A stretch of 64,000 nt of DNA from Pseudomonas sp. B6002 (lineage in GTDB: Bacteria; Pseudomonadota; Gammaproteobacteria; Pseudomonadales; Pseudomonadaceae), in the NCBI RefSeq assembly GCF_013385985.1, contig NZ_JACAOY010000011.1, forward strand, positions 61,329-125,328, read 5' to 3'. The notes beneath the pieces were generated by a model, which was not told the origin of the DNA, searched no databases, and saw only the letters and a list, made by a program, of their open reading frames with translations. This document shows, piece by piece, positions 32,305 to 41,007 of the stretch. The position numbers were made by a program, and so were the translations under genes. Within the stretch, counting starts at the first letter, position 1, and the number at the start of each line of letters is the position of its first letter.

Positions 32305-32396
32305 TTGGGCGCCGGTTAAATCAGCTGGGGCAATGCTCGTCATACCCCTCTGAATGAGTAGTGAGAATTCATCGCCCGCCTACAAGGAGTAGCTCC

Positions 32397-33482
32397 ATGT
32401 TCAGCGTCAGTCGCCGGTCCCTTCTCACCGTGGGCGCAGCCCTGCCTCTGCTGGGGCGCCTGGATTGGGCGGTTGCCAGCCCGCCACCGGCCAAGGCCGA
32501 GAGGCTGCGGCTGAACTACAACGAAAGCCCCTACGGGCCCTCTGGCGCGGCGCGGGAGGCCATGCAGCGGGGGATCGCCACCGCTGCGCTGTATCCCTAT
32601 GGCCATATGTATGCGCTGGCCGAACTGTTCGCCCAGCAACAAGGCATTGCCGAAGACCAGGTGGCGGTGTTTTCCGGCTCGATGGCGGCCCTGCGTTATG
32701 CCGTGCTGGCGTTTACCAGCACTACGCGCGGCCTGGTGATGGGCACGCCGTCCTATGAAGTGCCGCGCCAGGCAGCCGAAAACTGGAAGGCGCCGGTTCA
32801 GGAAGTGAACCTCAACGCTGCGCACGCCCACGACATTCCCGCCATGTTGGCTGCTGACCCCCAAGCCGGCATGCTCTACGTATGCAACCCCAACAACCCC
32901 ACCGGCACCCTGACCCCCACCGACGCCATCCGCGAGGCACTGGCGAACAAGCCCAAGGGCAGCGTGCTGGTGGTGGATGAGGCCTATATCGACTTCTCCG
33001 ATGCGCCCAGTTGCATCAGCTGGGTCAAAGAGCACGACGACCTGCTGGTGCTGCGCACCTTCTCGAAAATCTACGGCCTGGCCGGTGCCCGTGTGGGCGT
33101 GGCGATTGGCCATCCGGCGCTGCTGGAACGGCTGGCGGTATTCGGTGGCGACAACGTACCGGCCGGCTCCAGCCTGCTGGGTGCCCATGCCAGCCTGGAA
33201 GACGTGAAGCTGTTGCCCCAACGCAAGGCGCTCAATGCCCGGGCCCGCGATGAGACGGTCGCCTGGTTCAAGGCACGCGGTTTTACCTGCACGGTGTCGG
33301 CCAGCAACTGCTTCATGATCGACGTGAAACGCCCCGCCGAGCAGGTTATCGAGCGGCTGGCCGAGCACGGCGTGTTGATCGGGCGGGTGTGGAAGAACTG
33401 GCCGCAGTGGGTGCGGGTGACCGTTGGCAGTGCGCAGCAGATGCAGCGTTTCCGTGAAGTGTTTGCCGCACAGGTGGTCTGA
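32397..33482 (+). CDS. Tat-exported HisC-like PLP-dependent aminotransferase
   Basis: The 361-residue protein is a fold-type I aminotransferase close to histidinol-phosphate aminotransferase. It has CNPNNPTG at residues 163-170, the cofactor Asp194 in VVDEAYIDF and the PLP Lys224 in RTFSKIYGLAGARVG. Unlike cytoplasmic HisC it starts with a twin-arginine signal, SRRSLLTVGAALPLLG, with the pair at residues 6-7, ending around WAVAS. Export with cofactor bound is known for the Pseudomonas PLP enzyme PvdN. ATG 32397 follows AAGGAGTAGCTCC. It precedes the orphan LuxR gene on the same strand. The substrate is unknown. Confidence 0.85.
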   Translation: MFSVSRRSLLTVGAALPLLGRLDWAVASPPPAKAERLRLNYNESPYGPSGAAREAMQRGIATAALYPYGHMYALAELFAQQQGIAEDQVAVFSGSMAALRYAVLAFTSTTRGLVMGTPSYEVPRQAAENWKAPVQEVNLNAAHAHDIPAMLAADPQAGMLYVCNPNNPTGTLTPTDAIREALANKPKGSVLVVDEAYIDFSDAPSCISWVKEHDDLLVLRTFSKIYGLAGARVGVAIGHPALLERLAVFGGDNVPAGSSLLGAHASLEDVKLLPQRKALNARARDETVAWFKARGFTCTVSASNCFMIDVKRPAEQVIERLAEHGVLIGRVWKNWPQWVRVTVGSAQQMQRFREVFAAQVV

Positions 33483-33567
33483 GCTGAGGGATTGTCCTGC
33501 CCATGGTCGGCTTACCGTGGGAACCACTGGACAAGGCGTTTGGGGCATGTTTCATTCTTCTTGTTGT

Positions 33568-33584
33568 GTAGGGATATTTCCTAC
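33568..33584 (+). promoter_or_regulatory. Dyad upstream of the orphan LuxR gene
   Basis: GTAGGGATATTTCCTAC has perfect 5-bp arms (GTAGG/CCTAC) around seven bases, 95 bases before the luxR-type ATG. Its size and symmetry fit a helix-turn-helix dimer, perhaps the LuxR-type protein itself. Confidence 0.4.
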
Positions 33585-33678
33585 TGGGTGAGTCGACTCT
33601 GAATCGGGAGCTTCGGGATTGAAGCGCCCCGGCCAGAACGCTAGGCTCACCCGTAGTCACTCATCAGGGACGAGATTC

Positions 33679-34386
33679 ATGCGAAGCAATGGTCAACCCA
33701 ATAACAGCACGCCCATGCAGCCTGCCGACGTGCGCCAACTGCTCGATGCCGAGCTGACCCGACGGGGGCTTGGGCACTTTGAGGTCTATCAATGCGGGCC
33801 GACGCTGGATGAGGCGGAGATCATCTCCAACTACCCCGACGCCCTGGAGCGAGCGGACTCGGCCGATGACTTCTATCAGCGTGGCCAGTTGCTCTCTCTG
33901 TCCAAGGAACGGGTAAAACCCTTCTTCTGGAGCGATGAAAACCTGCTGACACCGGCTGAAGAGGCCGTGCCGGTGCCCGGGCCCTGCGCGCCGGTGGGGG
34001 AGGGCGCGAGTTTTATCGTGCACGGCAACCGTGGGTTTTACTCGATCCTCAACCTGTGCAGTTTCGGCGAAGGGCAACGGTTTCGTGACACCGTGCTGGC
34101 CAACAAAAGCGAGCTGCAGATGCTGCTGGTCTCGGTGTACGACGAGGCATTGGAAAGCTGCGCGCCCGCACTGACCCAGCAGACCGTGCTCACCCCCCGC
34201 GAAACCGAAGTGCTGTCGTGGACCAGCCTGGGCAAGACCTACAACGAAATTGCGCTGCTGACGTCGATGAGCCCGCGCACGGTCAAGTTCCACATGAAAA
34301 ACGTCTTCGACAAGCTGGACGTCACCAACGGCAAATCTGCCATTCGCAAGGCCCTGCAACTGGGCTATATCCGCGAACAAGCCTGA
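33679..34386 (+). CDS. Orphan LuxR-type regulator with autoinducer-binding-like domain
   Basis: The 235-residue protein is the size of a quorum-sensing LuxR. Residues 10-150 resemble the autoinducer-binding domain (IISNYPDAL, KPFFWSDENL). The C-terminus is a clear LuxR helix-turn-helix (LTPRETEVLSWTSLGKTYNE, then MSPRTVKFHMKNVFDKLDV). Residues equivalent to TraR Trp57, Tyr61 and Asp70, which hold acyl-homoserine lactones, appear replaced. No luxI-type synthase is in the window, so it is a solo that probably senses another ligand. ATG 33679 follows AGGGACGAGATTC. It directly precedes the five-gene biosynthetic operon and is its likely activator. Confidence 0.85.
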   Translation: MRSNGQPNNSTPMQPADVRQLLDAELTRRGLGHFEVYQCGPTLDEAEIISNYPDALERADSADDFYQRGQLLSLSKERVKPFFWSDENLLTPAEEAVPVPGPCAPVGEGASFIVHGNRGFYSILNLCSFGEGQRFRDTVLANKSELQMLLVSVYDEALESCAPALTQQTVLTPRETEVLSWTSLGKTYNEIALLTSMSPRTVKFHMKNVFDKLDVTNGKSAIRKALQLGYIREQA

Positions 34387-34405
34387 CCCATACCGGTTAA
34401 CCCCA

Positions 34406-34435
34406 CGCCCGCCTGCGATTTTTCGCAGGCGGGCG
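34406..34435 (+). terminator. GC-rich hairpin after the LuxR-type gene
   Basis: CGCCCGCCTGCGA at 34406-34418 pairs perfectly with TCGCAGGCGGGCG at 34423-34435 around a TTTT loop. The following bases are only moderately T-rich, so termination may be partial. It separates the regulator from the biosynthetic operon. Confidence 0.7.
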
Positions 34436-34461
34436 TTCGCGTGCGCGTGGCATTGGGGCCT

Positions 34462-34481
34462 ACCTGTCTAAAAGGGCAGCT
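34462..34481 (+). promoter_or_regulatory. Candidate lux box before the biosynthetic operon
   Basis: ACCTGTCTAAAAGGGCAGCT matches the NNCT-N12-AGNN pattern of LuxR-type operators, with CTGTC and GGCAG forming an imperfect dyad. It lies 176 bases upstream of the desaturase ATG, ahead of an AT-rich stretch that could be the promoter. The pattern is short, so chance cannot be excluded. Confidence 0.5.
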
Positions 34482-34656
34482 TGTTAGCGATAGGGCGGTG
34501 CTTTAGTTTTTTTCGCAGCCGAAGAGTCTAGCTCAGGCAAAAAAAACGTTAGCTGTAATACCTAAAAAAATGCCCGAGCCGGTAATGAGCCAGGAAGTCC
34601 AGTGCCACTCGCGCGGGTTGGGTGTTGCAGCGTGCCGCTTAATTAATGGAGTGATT

Positions 34657-35727
34657 ATGCTGGTCGATCAGAACAAAGAAGCTGCTGGCGAATACGCCGC
34701 GGGTATCTCCCGCGAGACCTTCGGGATGCTCAAGCACTTATGCAAAAAAGATAACTATCACTGGGCCGTCGCGCTGGGCAAGGACTACGCCATCATCGCG
34801 TTTGCGATCTACCTGTCCCTGGGGATCAGCTACTGGTTCTACCCGGTTTCGCTGTTTCTGATTGGCACCACCCAACGGGCGTTGGCGAACGTGCTGCATG
34901 AGTCGGCGCACAAGATGTTGGCCAAGAACCGCTTTATCAACTGGTTTTCCGGCACCTTCCTCTCCGGTTATCTGATTTTCCACCTGCACCAGTCCTACAG
35001 CATCTCGCACATCAAGAACCACCACGTGCACCTGGGCCACCCGGAAAAAGACCCGGACTACAACTTCCACCTCAAGTGCGGGCTGTACGACGTCAAGCAG
35101 AGCGAGCGTGAGTTCTTCCTGAAAAACGTACTGCTGGCCCTGTCCGGCTACCGCACCGTGCAGTACATCCGTTACATCATCAAGGACCGCGTCAAGGCCC
35201 AGGGTTCGGACAAGAAGATCCGCAACGAACGCCTCATGCTGTGGACCTACTGGGCGGCGATCTTCGCCGTGGCCGCCAGCTTCGGCGTGGTCACCGAGTT
35301 GCTGCTGTTCTGGCTGGTGCCGCTGTTCACCACCGCCGTGGCTGTGGGCTGGATCATCGAGCTGGCCGAGCACTACCCGCTGCCCGCTGCGGAAACCGAG
35401 AAGCTGCTGTTGACCCGCAACCGCAAGGGCAACGCACTGGAGAACTTCTTCTTCGGCCGCCACGACGACAACTACCACCTGGTGCACCACCTGCACCCGG
35501 CCATTCCGCACTGGAACATGCGCAAGGCCCACGAGCTGCTGATGTCGCACCCCGAGTACGCCCGCTGGGACAACCTGTGGGCCGGGATTTTCACCCGCGA
35601 CCGCCACAGCCCCAACAAGGAAACCATGCTCAGCTACGCGGCCAAGTTCCGCGCCCACAAGATTGCCAACCATGCCGACGACTCGAGCTTCGCCCGTCGC
35701 ATGCTCAACCAGGCCTACGGGGTTTGA
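34657..35727 (+). CDS. Membrane di-iron fatty-acid-desaturase-family enzyme
   Basis: The 356-residue protein belongs to the membrane desaturase/hydroxylase family. Its histidine boxes are HESAHK (81-86), HIKNHHVHLGH (118-128) and HLVHH (274-278), with an extra conserved ELAEH near 235-239. Hydrophobic stretches lie at about 45-75, 97-112 and 195-235. Such enzymes desaturate, hydroxylate or form acetylenic bonds on acyl or amino-acid-derived substrates. ATG 34657 follows GGAGTGATT. It is the first gene of a five-gene operon (next start 5 bases later), which suggests a tailoring role in small-molecule synthesis rather than membrane lipid metabolism. This is inference. Confidence 0.85.
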   Translation: MLVDQNKEAAGEYAAGISRETFGMLKHLCKKDNYHWAVALGKDYAIIAFAIYLSLGISYWFYPVSLFLIGTTQRALANVLHESAHKMLAKNRFINWFSGTFLSGYLIFHLHQSYSISHIKNHHVHLGHPEKDPDYNFHLKCGLYDVKQSEREFFLKNVLLALSGYRTVQYIRYIIKDRVKAQGSDKKIRNERLMLWTYWAAIFAVAASFGVVTELLLFWLVPLFTTAVAVGWIIELAEHYPLPAAETEKLLLTRNRKGNALENFFFGRHDDNYHLVHHLHPAIPHWNMRKAHELLMSHPEYARWDNLWAGIFTRDRHSPNKETMLSYAAKFRAHKIANHADDSSFARRMLNQAYGV

Positions 35728-35731
35728 CACC

Positions 35732-36703
35732 ATGAACGACACAGACAACAGCCTGCTGGCGACCCTGGCCCTGAAAAAGCTTGCGGCCAACAAGACCTAC
35801 CGCGACCTGTTCCTGGCCAGCGACACCCTGCGTGATTTCCTGCGCCCGGCCGCCTTGCGCTACATCATTTCCGAAGACCGCCTGGAGATGCTCGACAAGC
35901 TCGCTGCCCTGCAAGGCAAAGGCTATCGCACCGGGGTCGAATACGTGGGCGAAGAGGCCACCACCCTGGCCGAGGTGACCACCGCCACCGACGAATACCT
36001 CAAGCTGATCGACCTGATGGCGCTGCACCCTACGCTGAACGAGCCGCCGCAACTGGGCTTCGACCTGTCCAACGTCGGCACCATCATTTCCCGTGAACTG
36101 GCGATCGAGAACTGCTCGAAGATCCTCACCCATGCGGCCGACAAGGACGTCGGCGTGATCCTCAGCATGGAGCGGTCCCAGTGGACCGACTCGATCCTCG
36201 ACATCTTCATGCACCTGAGTGCGCGGTTTCCCCACCTGGGCATCACCCTGCAGGCGCAGTTGAACCGCACGCCCGATGACCTGGGTGAGATCCTCGGTAC
36301 CGGCTGCAAAATACGCCTGGTCAAAGGCGTCTACGCCGAGCCGGCTGCCATCGCCTTGCCCCGTGGTGCGCAGTTGGATGAGCGCTACCTGGGCCTGCTC
36401 GACCGCATCAACGGTGCCAGCAGCAACTACGCGTTCGCCACCCAGGACCCGCAACTGGTCGAGCAGATCCTCACCAGCGGCATCGCCAGCCGTGGCGAGC
36501 TGGAGATGCTCCACGGCGTGCGTCCCGAGTTGATCAAGGCCGTCAAGGACGCTGGCCAGGTCAAGACCCGCGTGTCGGCGGTGTACGGCACCAACTGGTA
36601 CTTGCACCTGCTGCACCGCGTCGCCGAATTCCCGCAGAACATTTTCCTCGCGCTGGACGACGTGGCGTCGCCGCGCCCTTCCGAAACCGCCACTCATTAC
36701 TGA
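35732..36703 (+). CDS. Proline-dehydrogenase-like flavoenzyme
   Basis: The 323-residue protein fits the length of monofunctional PRODH. The barrel motifs are present: VGVILSME, RLVKG at 195-199, YAFATQDPQLV at 233-243, GELEMLHGV at 255-263 and YGTNWYLHLLHRVAEFPQN. In true PRODH the last motif contains an Arg-Arg pair that binds the proline carboxylate; here it reads His295-Arg296. This hints at a different substrate. No P5C dehydrogenase is nearby, which argues against plain proline catabolism. It is the second gene of the operon, 4 bases after the desaturase. Confidence 0.82.
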   Translation: MNDTDNSLLATLALKKLAANKTYRDLFLASDTLRDFLRPAALRYIISEDRLEMLDKLAALQGKGYRTGVEYVGEEATTLAEVTTATDEYLKLIDLMALHPTLNEPPQLGFDLSNVGTIISRELAIENCSKILTHAADKDVGVILSMERSQWTDSILDIFMHLSARFPHLGITLQAQLNRTPDDLGEILGTGCKIRLVKGVYAEPAAIALPRGAQLDERYLGLLDRINGASSNYAFATQDPQLVEQILTSGIASRGELEMLHGVRPELIKAVKDAGQVKTRVSAVYGTNWYLHLLHRVAEFPQNIFLALDDVASPRPSETATHY

Positions 36704-36716
36704 AAAGGACATCCTC

Positions 36717-37967
36717 ATGAAACAGTACGTCGCCTTGGTTGATGTCTACTCCAGCGGTAACTTCCTGCCTAAATTCTTTCGGGATGCCGGCCTGGGCCTG
36801 ATCCATGTACAGAGCACCCCGGAACTGATGCCGAGCATGCTCGGGCCGAACCTGGATGAGTTCGAACACAATCTGATCTTCAACGGCAGCGCCGAAGCCG
36901 TGGCGCGCCGCCTGCGTGAGTTCGACGTGGTGGCGGTGGTCGCGGGCCAGGAGCCTGGCGTGCCGTTTGCCGACTACCTGAGCGAACAGCTGCAATTGCC
37001 GACTTCCAACGGTAGCGCGGGCTCCCGGGCGCGTCGCGACAAATTTGAAATGATCGGCAAGGTGGCCGCTGCCGGCCTGTTGACTGCGCGGCAGATCAAG
37101 TCCGCCGACCCCGCCGAGTTGCTGGCGTGGGTCGAGGCCGGCCAGGTGTTCCCGTGCGTGGTCAAGCCACTCAGCTCGGCGTCCACCGACGGGGTTTCGA
37201 TCTGCCACAACGTCGAGGACGTGAAGCGCGCCTGCCAGGAAGTGGTGTCCAACCTGGACATCTTCGGCCTGGCCAACACCGAGATCCTCTGCCAGTCCTA
37301 CCTCAAGGGGCCGGAGTTCATCGTCGATACGGTCAGCCGCGACGGGCAGGTGTATGTCTGCGGGATCTGGCGTTATGTGAAGCGCGAAGTCAGCGGTGGC
37401 AAAAACATCTATGACCGTGACGTGCTGATCGCCCCTGACAGCCCGGAAGCCAACGTGCTGGTGGACTACATCGTACAAGTGCTCAAGGCCCTGGGGATCA
37501 ACAACGGCCCGGCCCACTCGGAAGTGATCCTGACCGAGGCCGGCCCTGCGCTGGTGGAAGTCGGCGCGCGCTTGAACGGCAACATGGAGCCCAACTTCCA
37601 TGACATCAGCCTGGGCGGCAACCAGGCGCAGTTGACCTACCTGGCCTACTGCGAGGGCGAGGCGTTCAAGGCCGGTTACGCCGGCAAGCGCTACCACAAG
37701 CTCAAGGAAGCCTGCGTGATCAACACCGACACCACGCTGCAAGGCGAAGTGACCGGCTTCAACGAAGCGGCCATTCACCTGATCGAAGCGCTGCCCTCGG
37801 TGCACAAGCTGAGCGTGAAGTACAAGGCCGGCAAGCTGATGAAGAAGACCGTCGACCTGCTCAGCAGCCCGTTGCGCGTGTTCCTGCTGTCGGAGAACCA
37901 GCGGGATATCGACCAGGATTACGAACAGATCCGTCAGTACAAAGACAACGTCTACGTGATCCGCTGA
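36717..37967 (+). CDS. ATP-grasp ligase (amino-acid/carboxylate ligase type)
   Basis: The 416-residue protein has an ATP-grasp core: the nucleotide-binding Lys150 in FPCVVKPLSSASTDGV, the loop YLKGPEFIVDTVS and the metal-binding EVGARLNGN at 281-289. The architecture resembles BacD-type L-amino acid ligases, which join amino acids through acyl phosphates. That would build an amide or dipeptide. The gene is third in the operon, and its stop overlaps the MFS start (TGATG). Substrates are unknown. Confidence 0.85.
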   Translation: MKQYVALVDVYSSGNFLPKFFRDAGLGLIHVQSTPELMPSMLGPNLDEFEHNLIFNGSAEAVARRLREFDVVAVVAGQEPGVPFADYLSEQLQLPTSNGSAGSRARRDKFEMIGKVAAAGLLTARQIKSADPAELLAWVEAGQVFPCVVKPLSSASTDGVSICHNVEDVKRACQEVVSNLDIFGLANTEILCQSYLKGPEFIVDTVSRDGQVYVCGIWRYVKREVSGGKNIYDRDVLIAPDSPEANVLVDYIVQVLKALGINNGPAHSEVILTEAGPALVEVGARLNGNMEPNFHDISLGGNQAQLTYLAYCEGEAFKAGYAGKRYHKLKEACVINTDTTLQGEVTGFNEAAIHLIEALPSVHKLSVKYKAGKLMKKTVDLLSSPLRVFLLSENQRDIDQDYEQIRQYKDNVYVIR

Positions 37968-39172
37968 TGGGCACTTATCGCGCGTTACGCGGGCTCAACG
38001 CCCGGCTGCAGTCGCTGTTCATGATCACCCTGGTGTTCCGCATGGGCACCATGGCGTTCCCGTTCTACGCGGCGTACCTGATTCATCAGCACGCCGTGTC
38101 GGCGGGCACTGCCGGCCTGTTGGTCGGCGTGTATGGCGCGGGTGCGCTGTTCGTGGACCTGATCATCGGCGCGGTGATCAAGCGCCTGGGGGCTAACCGG
38201 GTGATCCTCGGCTCGTTGCTGCTCAACGCGTTGCTGCTGTTGATCATCCCGTCGGTGGACAACACCGCCGCGCTGTTCGTGCTGTCGTTCCTCTGGGGCG
38301 CCTGCTACGAAGCCTTCACGCCGGCGACGTTCTCCGAGACGGTGACCCACAGCAGCAGCGAGACGCGCAAGGTGGCGTTCTCCTGCAACCGGTTGGCGAT
38401 CAACATCGGCATGGCGATCGGGCCGCTGTTGGGCAGCCTGATTTTCCTGAGCAACGCTGACGCGGTGTTCTACATCAACGCGGCGTTGTCCCTGGTGTCG
38501 TTTGCCGCCTGCCTGCGATTCGGCCGTGCGGTCACGGTTGATGCGGCGCAGGCAGCGCCATTGGCGAGCAAGGGCAATGGCTTGCCGGAAACGGCTCCGC
38601 ACGAACGTTCGCGCTTGCTGGTGATTTTGCTGGCGGCGCTGCCGGTGCATGTGGCCTACGCCTTGCCGCCGACGTTTCTGTCGGCCTACATCATCACTTA
38701 CACCGAACTGCCGGCGTATTACGTCGGCATCATTTTCTTCATCAACGCCTTGCTGGTGATCCTGTTCGAAGTGCCGATCAACCAGCGCATGGCGCACCTG
38801 TCGAGCAGCCGCTCACTGGTGGCGGGGTTCCTGGTGGCCGGGGTCGGGTTTTTCCTGATGGGCTTCAGCCATGTCGGCGCGGTGCTGTTGGTGGCCACCG
38901 TACTGTGGAGCCTGGGCGAGATGATCGTGTTTCCCGGCATTACTCATTACGTGAGCAGCATCTCCAGCCGGCACACCGTGGACCGCAACCTGGGTTACTA
39001 CTCGGCGGGGGTCAACATCGGGGTGATGATCACGCCGTCGCTGGCGTTCATGTTGGTGGCGCAGCCGTCCCTGCCGTCGCCGTGGCTGCTGGCTGGCACC
39101 GTGTTGCTGCTGTTCGCGGTGGCAGTGGGCGTGATGAAAAGCTCAACCCTCTTGTGGAACAAGGAAGCGTGA
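37967..39172 (+). CDS. MFS transporter, probable product exporter
   Basis: The 401-residue protein has twelve hydrophobic segments and an MFS layout, with the loop around VIKRLGANRVILG between helices 2 and 3. It sits between two biosynthetic enzymes in one operon, overlapping the ATP-grasp gene by one base and ending 1 base before the PLP gene. Export of the pathway product, and perhaps self-resistance, is the simplest reading. Confidence 0.85.
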   Translation: MGTYRALRGLNARLQSLFMITLVFRMGTMAFPFYAAYLIHQHAVSAGTAGLLVGVYGAGALFVDLIIGAVIKRLGANRVILGSLLLNALLLLIIPSVDNTAALFVLSFLWGACYEAFTPATFSETVTHSSSETRKVAFSCNRLAINIGMAIGPLLGSLIFLSNADAVFYINAALSLVSFAACLRFGRAVTVDAAQAAPLASKGNGLPETAPHERSRLLVILLAALPVHVAYALPPTFLSAYIITYTELPAYYVGIIFFINALLVILFEVPINQRMAHLSSSRSLVAGFLVAGVGFFLMGFSHVGAVLLVATVLWSLGEMIVFPGITHYVSSISSRHTVDRNLGYYSAGVNIGVMITPSLAFMLVAQPSLPSPWLLAGTVLLLFAVAVGVMKSSTLLWNKEA

Positions 39173-39173
39173 A

Positions 39174-40292
39174 ATGAGCATCGTGCACTTGAACACCGCT
39201 GGCGCGGGCCTGATGTCCACGGCCACATTGAATGCGATCCAGCGCTTTACCTCGATCGAAGCGCGCATTGGCAGTTATGAGACTGAACTGGCCTACGAGG
39301 AACTGCTCAACGTCGACCTGTACCGGGTCGCCGCTGGCCTGTTGAATGCGCAGCCGAGCGACATCGGTTTTTTCAGCAGTGCCACCGAGGCCTGGACCAG
39401 CATCCTCAGCAAGCTCAACTTCCCCCGGGGCAAGCGGGTGTGGGTGTCGGCCTCGGAGTACGCGGCCAACCTGATCTTCTTCAACTACCTCAAGCTGTCT
39501 CGCGACCTCCGTGTCGAGGTGATCCCGACCACCGCCACCAGCCCGTTGGACCTGGATTGGGTACAGCGCAACCTGGACGAGGACGTATTCCTGGTCAGCG
39601 TGTCGCACCTGCCGTCATGCTGCGGCGTGATCAACCCGGTGGAAGCGTTGGGCGCGTTGCTCAAGGACTCGAGCGCGTTGTATGTGGTCGACGCCTGCCA
39701 GTCCCTGGGCCAGTTGCCGCTGGACGTGCGTGACATTCACTGTGATGTGTTGACGGGCGCGGGGCGCAAGTTTCTCTGCGGGCCGCGTGGCAGCGGGATT
39801 GCCTATGTGTCGCCACGCTTGCTTGGACAGTTGGAACTGAATTTTGCCGACCTGCATGCGGCCAGCACCGATGGCCAGGTCAACCGTATCGAGGTGTCCA
39901 GTGCGCGGGTGTTGGAGATTGCCGAGAAAAGTTTTTCAGCCCTGGTGGGCTTGCACACGGCGATGCGCGAATACGCGGAGGTGGGGGCGGCGGTGAACAC
40001 CGAACCTTATGCCTTGCTGGTGCAGGAGCTGCGGCGCTTGCCACAGGTGCAACTGCTGTGTGAGCCGTTCGAGCAGACCGGGACTGTGTCGTTCGTGCCG
40101 CGCAACAGCTCGGCCAAGGTGTTCGTCAGCCTGGCCCGCGAACTGGGCCTCAACCTGTGGGCGGGCACTGCCGCCCACACGCCGTTGCTGCTCAAGGACC
40201 TGGGCGCCACGCATTTCGTGCGCGCCTCGGTCGGCCGGCAGGTCACCCTGGCCCAGGTGGAACAGGCCCTGGTGACACTGCGCAGTTTGTAG
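39174..40292 (+). CDS. Class V aminotransferase-fold PLP enzyme (EgtE/isopenicillin-epimerase-like)
   Basis: The 372-residue fold-type I enzyme has its PLP Lys199 in TGAGRKFLCGPRGSG and the cofactor Asp in YVVDACQSLGQLPLD. VHLNTAGAGLMS at the start and the overall length resemble EgtE-type C-S lyases and isopenicillin N epimerase more than NifS desulfurases. Possible reactions are C-S cleavage, beta-elimination or epimerisation of an amino acid. It is the last gene of the operon, with ATG 39174 after GGAAGCGTGAA. No biosynthetic gene follows on this strand. Confidence 0.85.
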   Translation: MSIVHLNTAGAGLMSTATLNAIQRFTSIEARIGSYETELAYEELLNVDLYRVAAGLLNAQPSDIGFFSSATEAWTSILSKLNFPRGKRVWVSASEYAANLIFFNYLKLSRDLRVEVIPTTATSPLDLDWVQRNLDEDVFLVSVSHLPSCCGVINPVEALGALLKDSSALYVVDACQSLGQLPLDVRDIHCDVLTGAGRKFLCGPRGSGIAYVSPRLLGQLELNFADLHAASTDGQVNRIEVSSARVLEIAEKSFSALVGLHTAMREYAEVGAAVNTEPYALLVQELRRLPQVQLLCEPFEQTGTVSFVPRNSSAKVFVSLARELGLNLWAGTAAHTPLLLKDLGATHFVRASVGRQVTLAQVEQALVTLRSL

Positions 40293-40302
40293 CGTCAGGC
40301 AG

Positions 40303-41007
40303 TCACTGCGCGGCGATGGTGTAGCCGTCGAACGCGCTCTGCTGTTGCAGCGCGGTCACGATGCTTTTGCGCGTGACCGGCTGCTCGACGCCGCTGTTGT
40401 CGACGAAGGTTTCGCCTTCCAGCTCGGCTTCGCTGCCTTCGCCCACGAAGGCAAAGCCGAGGAACTCCAGCGCTTCACGGTCGACGTTGAGCTTGGAGCG
40501 CGGTGTGCGCAGCGGCAGGGTGACACTGATGCCGTCCTTGCTGATCACATACACTTCTTCTTTCTTGGCCCGTGTGGCCTTGCTCTTGCCGGCGCTCGGG
40601 TTGCTGATGGCCTGGTGGCTCTGGTTCAGCACCTTGAGGGCCAGGCCGTAGACCAGCTCCTGGAACTCAGGGTCGTCCTTGAAGCTGGACAGGATGCGGC
40701 TGATGGAGAATTGGCTGCTGAGGTTTTCCAGGGCGGCGTTGTCGGCAGCCTCGGCGTCTTTCAGCTGCTTGAGCTGGCCCATCAGGTCGTAGGCCTTGTC
40801 GTCATCGAAGGCATCGTGGGCCTGGCGGATGGCGACGCGCAGCTCGCGGATCTGGTCGCTTTCCTTGGAGGTGTGGAAGGCGTCCAGCACCATTTCGCTG
40901 ATGATCTTGGCCGCTGGCACATGCTGTGAAAGATTGATGGCGTTTTCGTATTCAGCTTTGGATTGCAAGGCGACTACGGATTCTTCTTCGGTGTAGGAAT
41001 CGGACAT
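40303..41007 (-). CDS. Hypothetical protein
   Basis: The 234-residue soluble protein is acidic in its N-terminal half, which looks mainly helical (VAIRQAHDAFDDDKAYDLMG, QLKQLKDAEAADNAALENLS). A Lys/Arg-rich linker KSKATRAKKEE near 150 is followed by a beta-rich segment (VYVISKDGISVTLPLRTPRS). There is no signal peptide or membrane segment. I do not recognise the family. The basic linker could touch nucleic acid, but that is a guess. It converges on the biosynthetic operon, with 10 bases between stop codons, and is probably unrelated to it. Confidence 0.75.
   Translation of the reverse strand: MSDSYTEEESVVALQSKAEYENAINLSQHVPAAKIISEMVLDAFHTSKESDQIRELRVAIRQAHDAFDDDKAYDLMGQLKQLKDAEAADNAALENLSSQFSISRILSSFKDDPEFQELVYGLALKVLNQSHQAISNPSAGKSKATRAKKEEVYVISKDGISVTLPLRTPRSKLNVDREALEFLGFAFVGEGSEAELEGETFVDNSGVEQPVTRKSIVTALQQQSAFDGYTIAAQ

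Follow-up and report, generated by a model that had tools for sequence, protein, structure and literature searches.

In a 64,000-nucleotide (nt) stretch of DNA from Pseudomonas sp. B6002 (hereafter referred to as the window, whose coordinates are used throughout), we analysed a LuxR-type regulator gene and the five closely packed genes that follow it, assigning the open reading frames (ORFs) to families with Pfam and NCBIfam. The regulator gene (33679-34386, plus strand) encodes Autoind_bind (PF03472) and GerE helix-turn-helix (PF00196) domains. The five genes of the operon, all on the plus strand, encode a membrane desaturase-fold enzyme (DES; 34657-35727; PF00487, FA_desaturase), a proline dehydrogenase (PRODH)-like flavoenzyme (35732-36703; PF01619, Pro_dh), an ATP-grasp ligase of L-amino acid ligase type (36717-37967; Pfam ATP-grasp), a major facilitator superfamily (MFS) carrier presumed to be an exporter (37967-39172; PF07690) and a class V pyridoxal phosphate (PLP) enzyme with a SufS fold (PLP5; 39174-40292; Pfam Aminotran_5). 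All five ORFs are intact and are separated by 4, 13, -1 and 1 bases. Pfam agrees with the families named by an earlier sequence-only reading of this DNA, which had also described the packed block at 34657-40292 and the preceding LuxR-type gene as an orphan; indeed, no luxI lies beside it. The same reading had noted the absence of non-ribosomal peptide synthetase (NRPS) and polyketide synthase (PKS) genes and, consistent with this, a Pfam scan of the eight proteins encoded at 32361-41007 detected no adenylation, ketosynthase or carrier domains. Scans of the window for tRNA genes and Rfam families were empty.

The regulator gene and the operon are a real, moving block, a six-gene unit. The upstream neighbour, at 32397-33482, is the pyoverdine transaminase gene ptaA, which matches its NCBIfam equivalog with 660 bits (cut-off 500). 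The sequence-only reading had let the cluster begin with this gene, a boundary that does not hold: PtaA is ruled out as a pathway enzyme by its equivalog identity, and ptaA is not beside the unit in two of the six Pseudomonas relatives retrieved by the scan described below. The LuxR gene stands beside the operon in all six, including these two. Furthermore, two relatives have no operon between ptaA and the gene at 40303-41007, the 3' neighbour of the operon: the aligned ends of these two genes are separated by about 67 bases in G004 and by about 306 bases in G017.

A pattern scan with an alignment of the PRODH-like protein, which covered 84,980 species with one genome per species and in which misses are possible, retrieved 26 loci. 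The five families occur together in 18 of these (with PLP5 interrupted in one of the 18, L058), a clustering far beyond chance that bears out the co-conservation implied by the sequence-only reading. In the other eight loci, DES, PRODH and PLP5 are all present in six, and a contig end removes one of the three in two. DES is absent in L070 alone and PLP5 in L066 alone, and the ligase is absent in L065 and L070; in each case a contig end is close by. The LuxR gene followed by the five genes, arranged as in the window (A type), is found in six Pseudomonas loci, and the five genes recur in the operon's order in three Streptomyces loci, whose proteins are 36-54% identical to those of Pseudomonas. 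In the B type, found in nine Pseudomonas loci, the order is PRODH, GntG-family PLP aldolase, ligase, MFS, PLP5 and DES. In eight actinomycete loci (C type), DES-PRODH-PLP5 lies inside larger clusters, six of which include a ligase of this type; the additional genes (L072 and L073) encode a second ATP-grasp protein with a fused enolase-type domain, as well as an NRPS, a P450 and an S9 peptidase, and an annotated actinomycete plasmid copy has two ATP-grasp genes, an AMP-binding gene, a P450 gene and a RidA gene nearby. On plasmids of Pseudosulfitobacter and Roseovarius (alphaproteobacteria of the Roseobacter group), only DES-PRODH-PLP5 is present, after AzlC/AzlD and an Lrp regulator; the two plasmids share protein accessions and are nearly one case, hardly independent, and the DES gene of the second (Roseovarius) is broken by an insertion sequence (IS). 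The unit is rare. The A type occurs in four of 299 Pseudomonas genomes searched, that of B6002 included, and the B type in nine. The PRODH-like gene is found in one of 398 genomes of the phylum at E 1e-50, namely B6002 itself; of 295 genomes from the Streptomyces group, 11 carry it, three of these with the cluster. Between the A and B types, identity falls from 45% for PRODH and 41% for PLP5 to 36% for DES, 30% for the ligase and 22% for the MFS carrier. By these values, the constant chemistry seems to lie in PRODH and PLP5, and the ligase and the carrier seem to be exchangeable ends.

The PRODH-like protein belongs to the PRODH superfamily (Pro_dh domain, 56.8 bits; cut-off 27) and aligns with most of the Thermus PRODH. 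In all 27 sequences of the clade alignment, the Thermus residues K99, D133, Q252, Y255, Y285 and R288 are replaced by D, S, E, H, H and H, respectively, and R184, K187 and R289 are retained. We take K99, R288 and R289 to be the equivalents of Lys329, Arg555 and Arg556 of PutA; this match fits the alignment, in which the PutA of B6002 itself carries K, D, R and R opposite the Thermus enzyme. According to a study of Escherichia coli PutA (PMC10651016), Lys329 is the base and Arg555 and Arg556 are carboxylate ligands. The catalytic Lys and the Arg-Arg carboxylate site of canonical proline-oxidizing PRODHs are not preserved in the operon enzyme (K99 to D, R288 to H), which scores 56 bits, versus 358 bits for the canonical PRODH encoded elsewhere in the genome in a 1334-residue frame (PutA). 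The second PRODH copies in both actinomycete genomes checked retain K, D, R and R, as does a pruA-linked Rhodococcus control enzyme, which groups with the Thermus PRODH, apart from the clade, in a tree that has long branches. As judged from the alignment, the operon PRODH is a separate subfamily with an apparently rebuilt substrate site. The canonical copies elsewhere, together with the replaced site residues, make a role in proline catabolism improbable; the family assigned by the sequence-only reading thus stands, and the usual action on proline is unlikely.

The ATP-grasp ligase scores 361 bits against PRK07206 (cut-off 302), placing it by sequence in the L-amino acid ligase subfamily, and its nearest solved structure is an L-amino acid ligase (PDB 30vh, E=2.9e-53). 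The dapdiamide synthase DdaF is of the same ligase family, but the operon ligase, the only component compared with that system, scores 238 bits against DdaF, far below the cut-off of 840. For the MFS carrier, the best NCBIfam matches are efflux models, every one below its cut-off. The class V family of PLP5 was confirmed and can be refined to a SufS fold without the desulfurase cysteine: residues 330-337 contain no Cys in any of the 26 sequences, where the aligned desulfurase has GHHC. A function as a SufS/IscS desulfurase is excluded by the absence of this catalytic loop cysteine, and one as the C-S lyase EgtE by a score of 113.7 bits against a cut-off of 400. Desulfurases and their near kin make up the 50 matches listed in the class V comparison, and further class V families are possible.

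The three histidine boxes of DES (H81, H85, H118, H122, H123, H274, H277 and H278) are kept in 26 of 26 sequences, placing DES in the membrane desaturase/hydroxylase superfamily. Its only close named family is the NCBIfam equivalog GntB_guanitoxin, against which it scores 326 bits, below the cut-off of 380; one more A-type and three actinomycete members score 331, 322, 310 and 285 bits, and the three B-type members tested exceed the cut-off (420, 455 and 420 bits). The desaturase fold proposed by the sequence-only reading is therefore retained, and by these scores DES is a relative of the amino-acid oxygenase GntB rather than of lipid desaturases. A possible but unlikely alternative builds on this kinship: as a GntB-like enzyme, DES would hydroxylate L-arginine at the gamma position, and the pathway would lead to a cyclic guanidino amino acid, for example an imidazoline dehydrogenated by the PRODH-like enzyme to a 2-aminoimidazole. 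The GntG-family aldolase of the B type (306 bits, cut-off 230) is in keeping with such a route, and the Lys-to-Asp change in the PRODH site might accommodate a positively charged substrate. However, the GntB model is broad and gives 314 bits to the desaturase of a rhizobitoxine-like locus, a score like those of the A-type enzymes, and we therefore dropped arginine hydroxylation as a proven function of DES. Moreover, the operon has no GntC-type cyclase, and the plasmid versions adjoin AzlC/AzlD, which are known for branched-chain amino acids. The rhizobitoxine-like locus itself (L036:8203-12610, Pseudomonas) comprises a PhnW-like gene, an O-acetylhomoserine sulfhydrylase-like gene, the desaturase gene and a peptidase C26 gene. 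Its desaturase is about 40% identical to DES, which lends some plausibility to a second and less probable alternative, in which DES would desaturate the side chain of an amino acid, the activity ascribed to RtxC in the making of rhizobitoxine, and the product would be a vinylglycine-type antimetabolite, a mechanism-based inhibitor of PLP enzymes; yet the operon has no sulfhydrylase or ether-forming gene.

The region upstream of DES contains a conserved candidate regulatory site. In the seven A-type upstream regions, that of the window counted, 135 of 261 columns are invariant, and the longest invariant run is a 25-base pair (bp) block at 34461-34485 (plus strand); none of 10000 column shuffles gave a run as long. 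Within it, ACCTGTCTAAAAGGGCAGCT at 34462-34481 has the CT-N12-AG form of las/rhl boxes, and the genome holds one exact copy and one further copy with three mismatches. This lux-box-like site is likely to be the target of the LuxR protein. The receptors that respond to acyl-homoserine lactone (AHL) contact their ligand through residues corresponding to LasR W60, Y64, D73 and W88; at these positions the LuxR protein, aligned to LasR and QscR, has L, D, G and W. Most of these contacts are absent, and the residues at W60, Y64 and D73 make a non-AHL ligand likelier. A search for luxI-type synthases found no match in the B6002 genome, nor in any of 14 control genomes. A 14-bp perfect hairpin (34405-34436, plus strand) lies 3' of the LuxR gene. 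In the seven sequences, 6 of its 14 pairs are changed on both sides and its covariation is 0.320, versus 0.158 in shuffled alignments (0 of 500 as high), with no excess of further pair types (8, versus 7.7 in shuffles). This hairpin is probably a transcript end or a regulatory stem. A sigma-70 promoter scan found no site.

We favour, with moderate confidence, the reading that the mobile LuxR and five-gene unit encodes a pathway, complete in itself, that makes an amino-acid-derived compound for export without an NRPS. The observations that carry this reading are the gene identities, the co-conservation, the active-site changes, the conserved box and the relatives in which this site is without the unit. 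From these we infer a substrate class, an order of steps, a dipeptide product, a direction of export and a mode of regulation. DES would first oxidize an amino-acid side chain, by hydroxylation or desaturation; the PRODH-like enzyme would next remove two electrons from a C-N bond of this intermediate, giving an imine or enamine; and PLP5 would finish the unusual residue by elimination, cyclization or amino transfer. The ATP-grasp ligase would then couple the residue to another amino acid, the MFS carrier would export the product, and the LuxR protein would bind the box at 34462-34481 in response to something other than a classical AHL. DES, PRODH and PLP5 would form a transferable core, and the partnership with AzlC/AzlD on the plasmids suggests that this core alone already yields an exportable amino acid.

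Several points weigh against this reading. The direction of the MFS carrier and the substrates of the ligase are guesses from family. The gene-to-gene distance matrices agree for all ten pairs (r 0.914-0.996, with 0 of 999 permutations as high), but part of this agreement is owed to the strong split between types, and the B-type ligase and carrier are so divergent that the product of this type may differ. In addition, 6 of 19 Pseudomonas DES homologues with at least 35% identity occur without the set; 8 of 10 further PRODH-like loci of the Streptomyces group (of which L149 is the same as L073) have no DES and PLP5 within 19.5 kb; and the annotation of Bacillota plasmids shows neither DES nor PLP5 beside the PRODH-like copies. 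More distant PRODH-like and DES homologues do, then, occur alone. Routine scattering, which the sequence-only reading had named as fatal to its proposal, is not seen within this clade. The least probable alternative, a catabolic or detoxifying operon whose MFS carrier imports an amino-acid derivative for degradation, would suit PRODH and PLP families that are often catabolic and a LuxR protein that could sense a plant or host compound, but the ligase family spends ATP on joining amino acids, the actinomycete version has NRPS and P450 genes, and the rare, scattered occurrence fits specialized biosynthesis better.

For the biosynthetic unit, we also put forward a bolder and more tentative proposal: that DES-PRODH-PLP5 may be an unrecognized transferable cassette of gammaproteobacteria, alphaproteobacteria and actinomycetes, building a new kind of amino-acid warhead through a flavin oxidation without known precedent in the PRODH fold. 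Hosts would pair the cassette with different ligases and exporters, and in this Pseudomonas clade control would lie with a LuxR protein that answers to a ligand other than an AHL, conceivably the product itself, and acts through a single dedicated box. The unit offers a five-gene, laboratory-tractable route to a presumably exported amino-acid compound, and a PRODH subfamily that lacks the catalytic lysine and keeps other conserved residues allows a direct test of how the fold turns to new chemistry. Because at least three bacterial classes have the cassette, a single assay would provide annotation for many clusters with genes that are currently labelled only 'fatty acid desaturase family protein', 'proline dehydrogenase family protein' and 'aminotransferase class V-fold PLP-dependent enzyme'.

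A search of the open-licence literature, with subscription papers and MIBiG outside its scope, found no description of this gene set among the matches listed, in line with the earlier view of the cluster as uncharacterized. The broader interpretation of the sequence-only reading is supported in part, as an uncharacterized, co-conserved, NRPS- and PKS-free set with a ligase, a carrier and an orphan LuxR gene; its proposal of an antimetabolite or signal as the product is a conjecture. Furanomycin, made by a Pseudomonas and a Streptomyces, was set aside as a candidate product, as its polyketide-like origin does not fit. The rhizobitoxine rtx genes include a desaturase-fold enzyme acting on an amino acid, but the operon has no RtxA-like sulfhydrylase/aminotransferase gene. 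Monofunctional Thermus-type PRODHs share the fold by homology and the residues R184, K187 and R289; they differ in K99, D133, Y285 and R288, replaced in 27 of 27 clade sequences, and the operon contains no P5C dehydrogenase gene. Guanitoxin biosynthesis (PMC10367076) has the DES family (GntB) in common with the operon and the GntG-family aldolase with the B-type relatives, but the A-type DES falls under the GntB cut-off and the cyclase GntC has no counterpart among the operon genes. The mangotoxin mbo and related ATP-grasp clusters of Pseudomonas (PMC13185094) are similarly short, NRPS-free operons with ATP-grasp amino-acid ligation and iron-dependent oxidation; mbo differs in using a haem-oxygenase-like oxidase and two ligases, and the accessible text describes no PRODH-like or class V PLP enzyme. 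The phaseolotoxin pht cluster, a Pseudomonas antimetabolite cluster (PMC8473136), has desaturase-like, aminotransferase-like and L-amino acid ligase genes according to titles cited there, with no PRODH-like gene described in the accessible text, a likeness by description and not by sequence. The accessible parts of the papers on Pantoea PNP-1 (PMC4010436) and on beta-lactones (PMC11427300) present gene sets other than this one.

Beyond the unit, the minus-strand gene at 40303-41007 encodes a 234-residue protein without a Pfam or NCBIfam match; a search of 28 other relatives found the ORF conserved in eight, with 78-86% DNA identity. In a B-type cluster (L049:10721-14464), PLP5 is interrupted by an insertion with a 573-residue ORF, and in another Pseudomonas genome (L050:9279-14521) a GntB-family gene (384 bits) adjoins an NRPS gene. 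On Bacillota plasmids (L125, L127 and L131), the PRODH-like proteins match the clade at three places (D for K99, S for D133 and H for R288) and keep Y285. A third Streptomyces-group set (L124, L126, L129 and L150-L157) comprises PRODH-like genes without DES or PLP5 nearby. The proteins of the eight Streptomyces-group loci mentioned above that lack DES and PLP5 vary at the diagnostic places, none having His at R288, and the varied residues in the third set suggest drift or a new role. In L126, the Streptomyces globisporus C-1027 plasmid, the PRODH-like gene lies near a type I PKS and SgcE6, and in L124, L154 and L155 a partial match to the ligase adjoins the PRODH-like gene.

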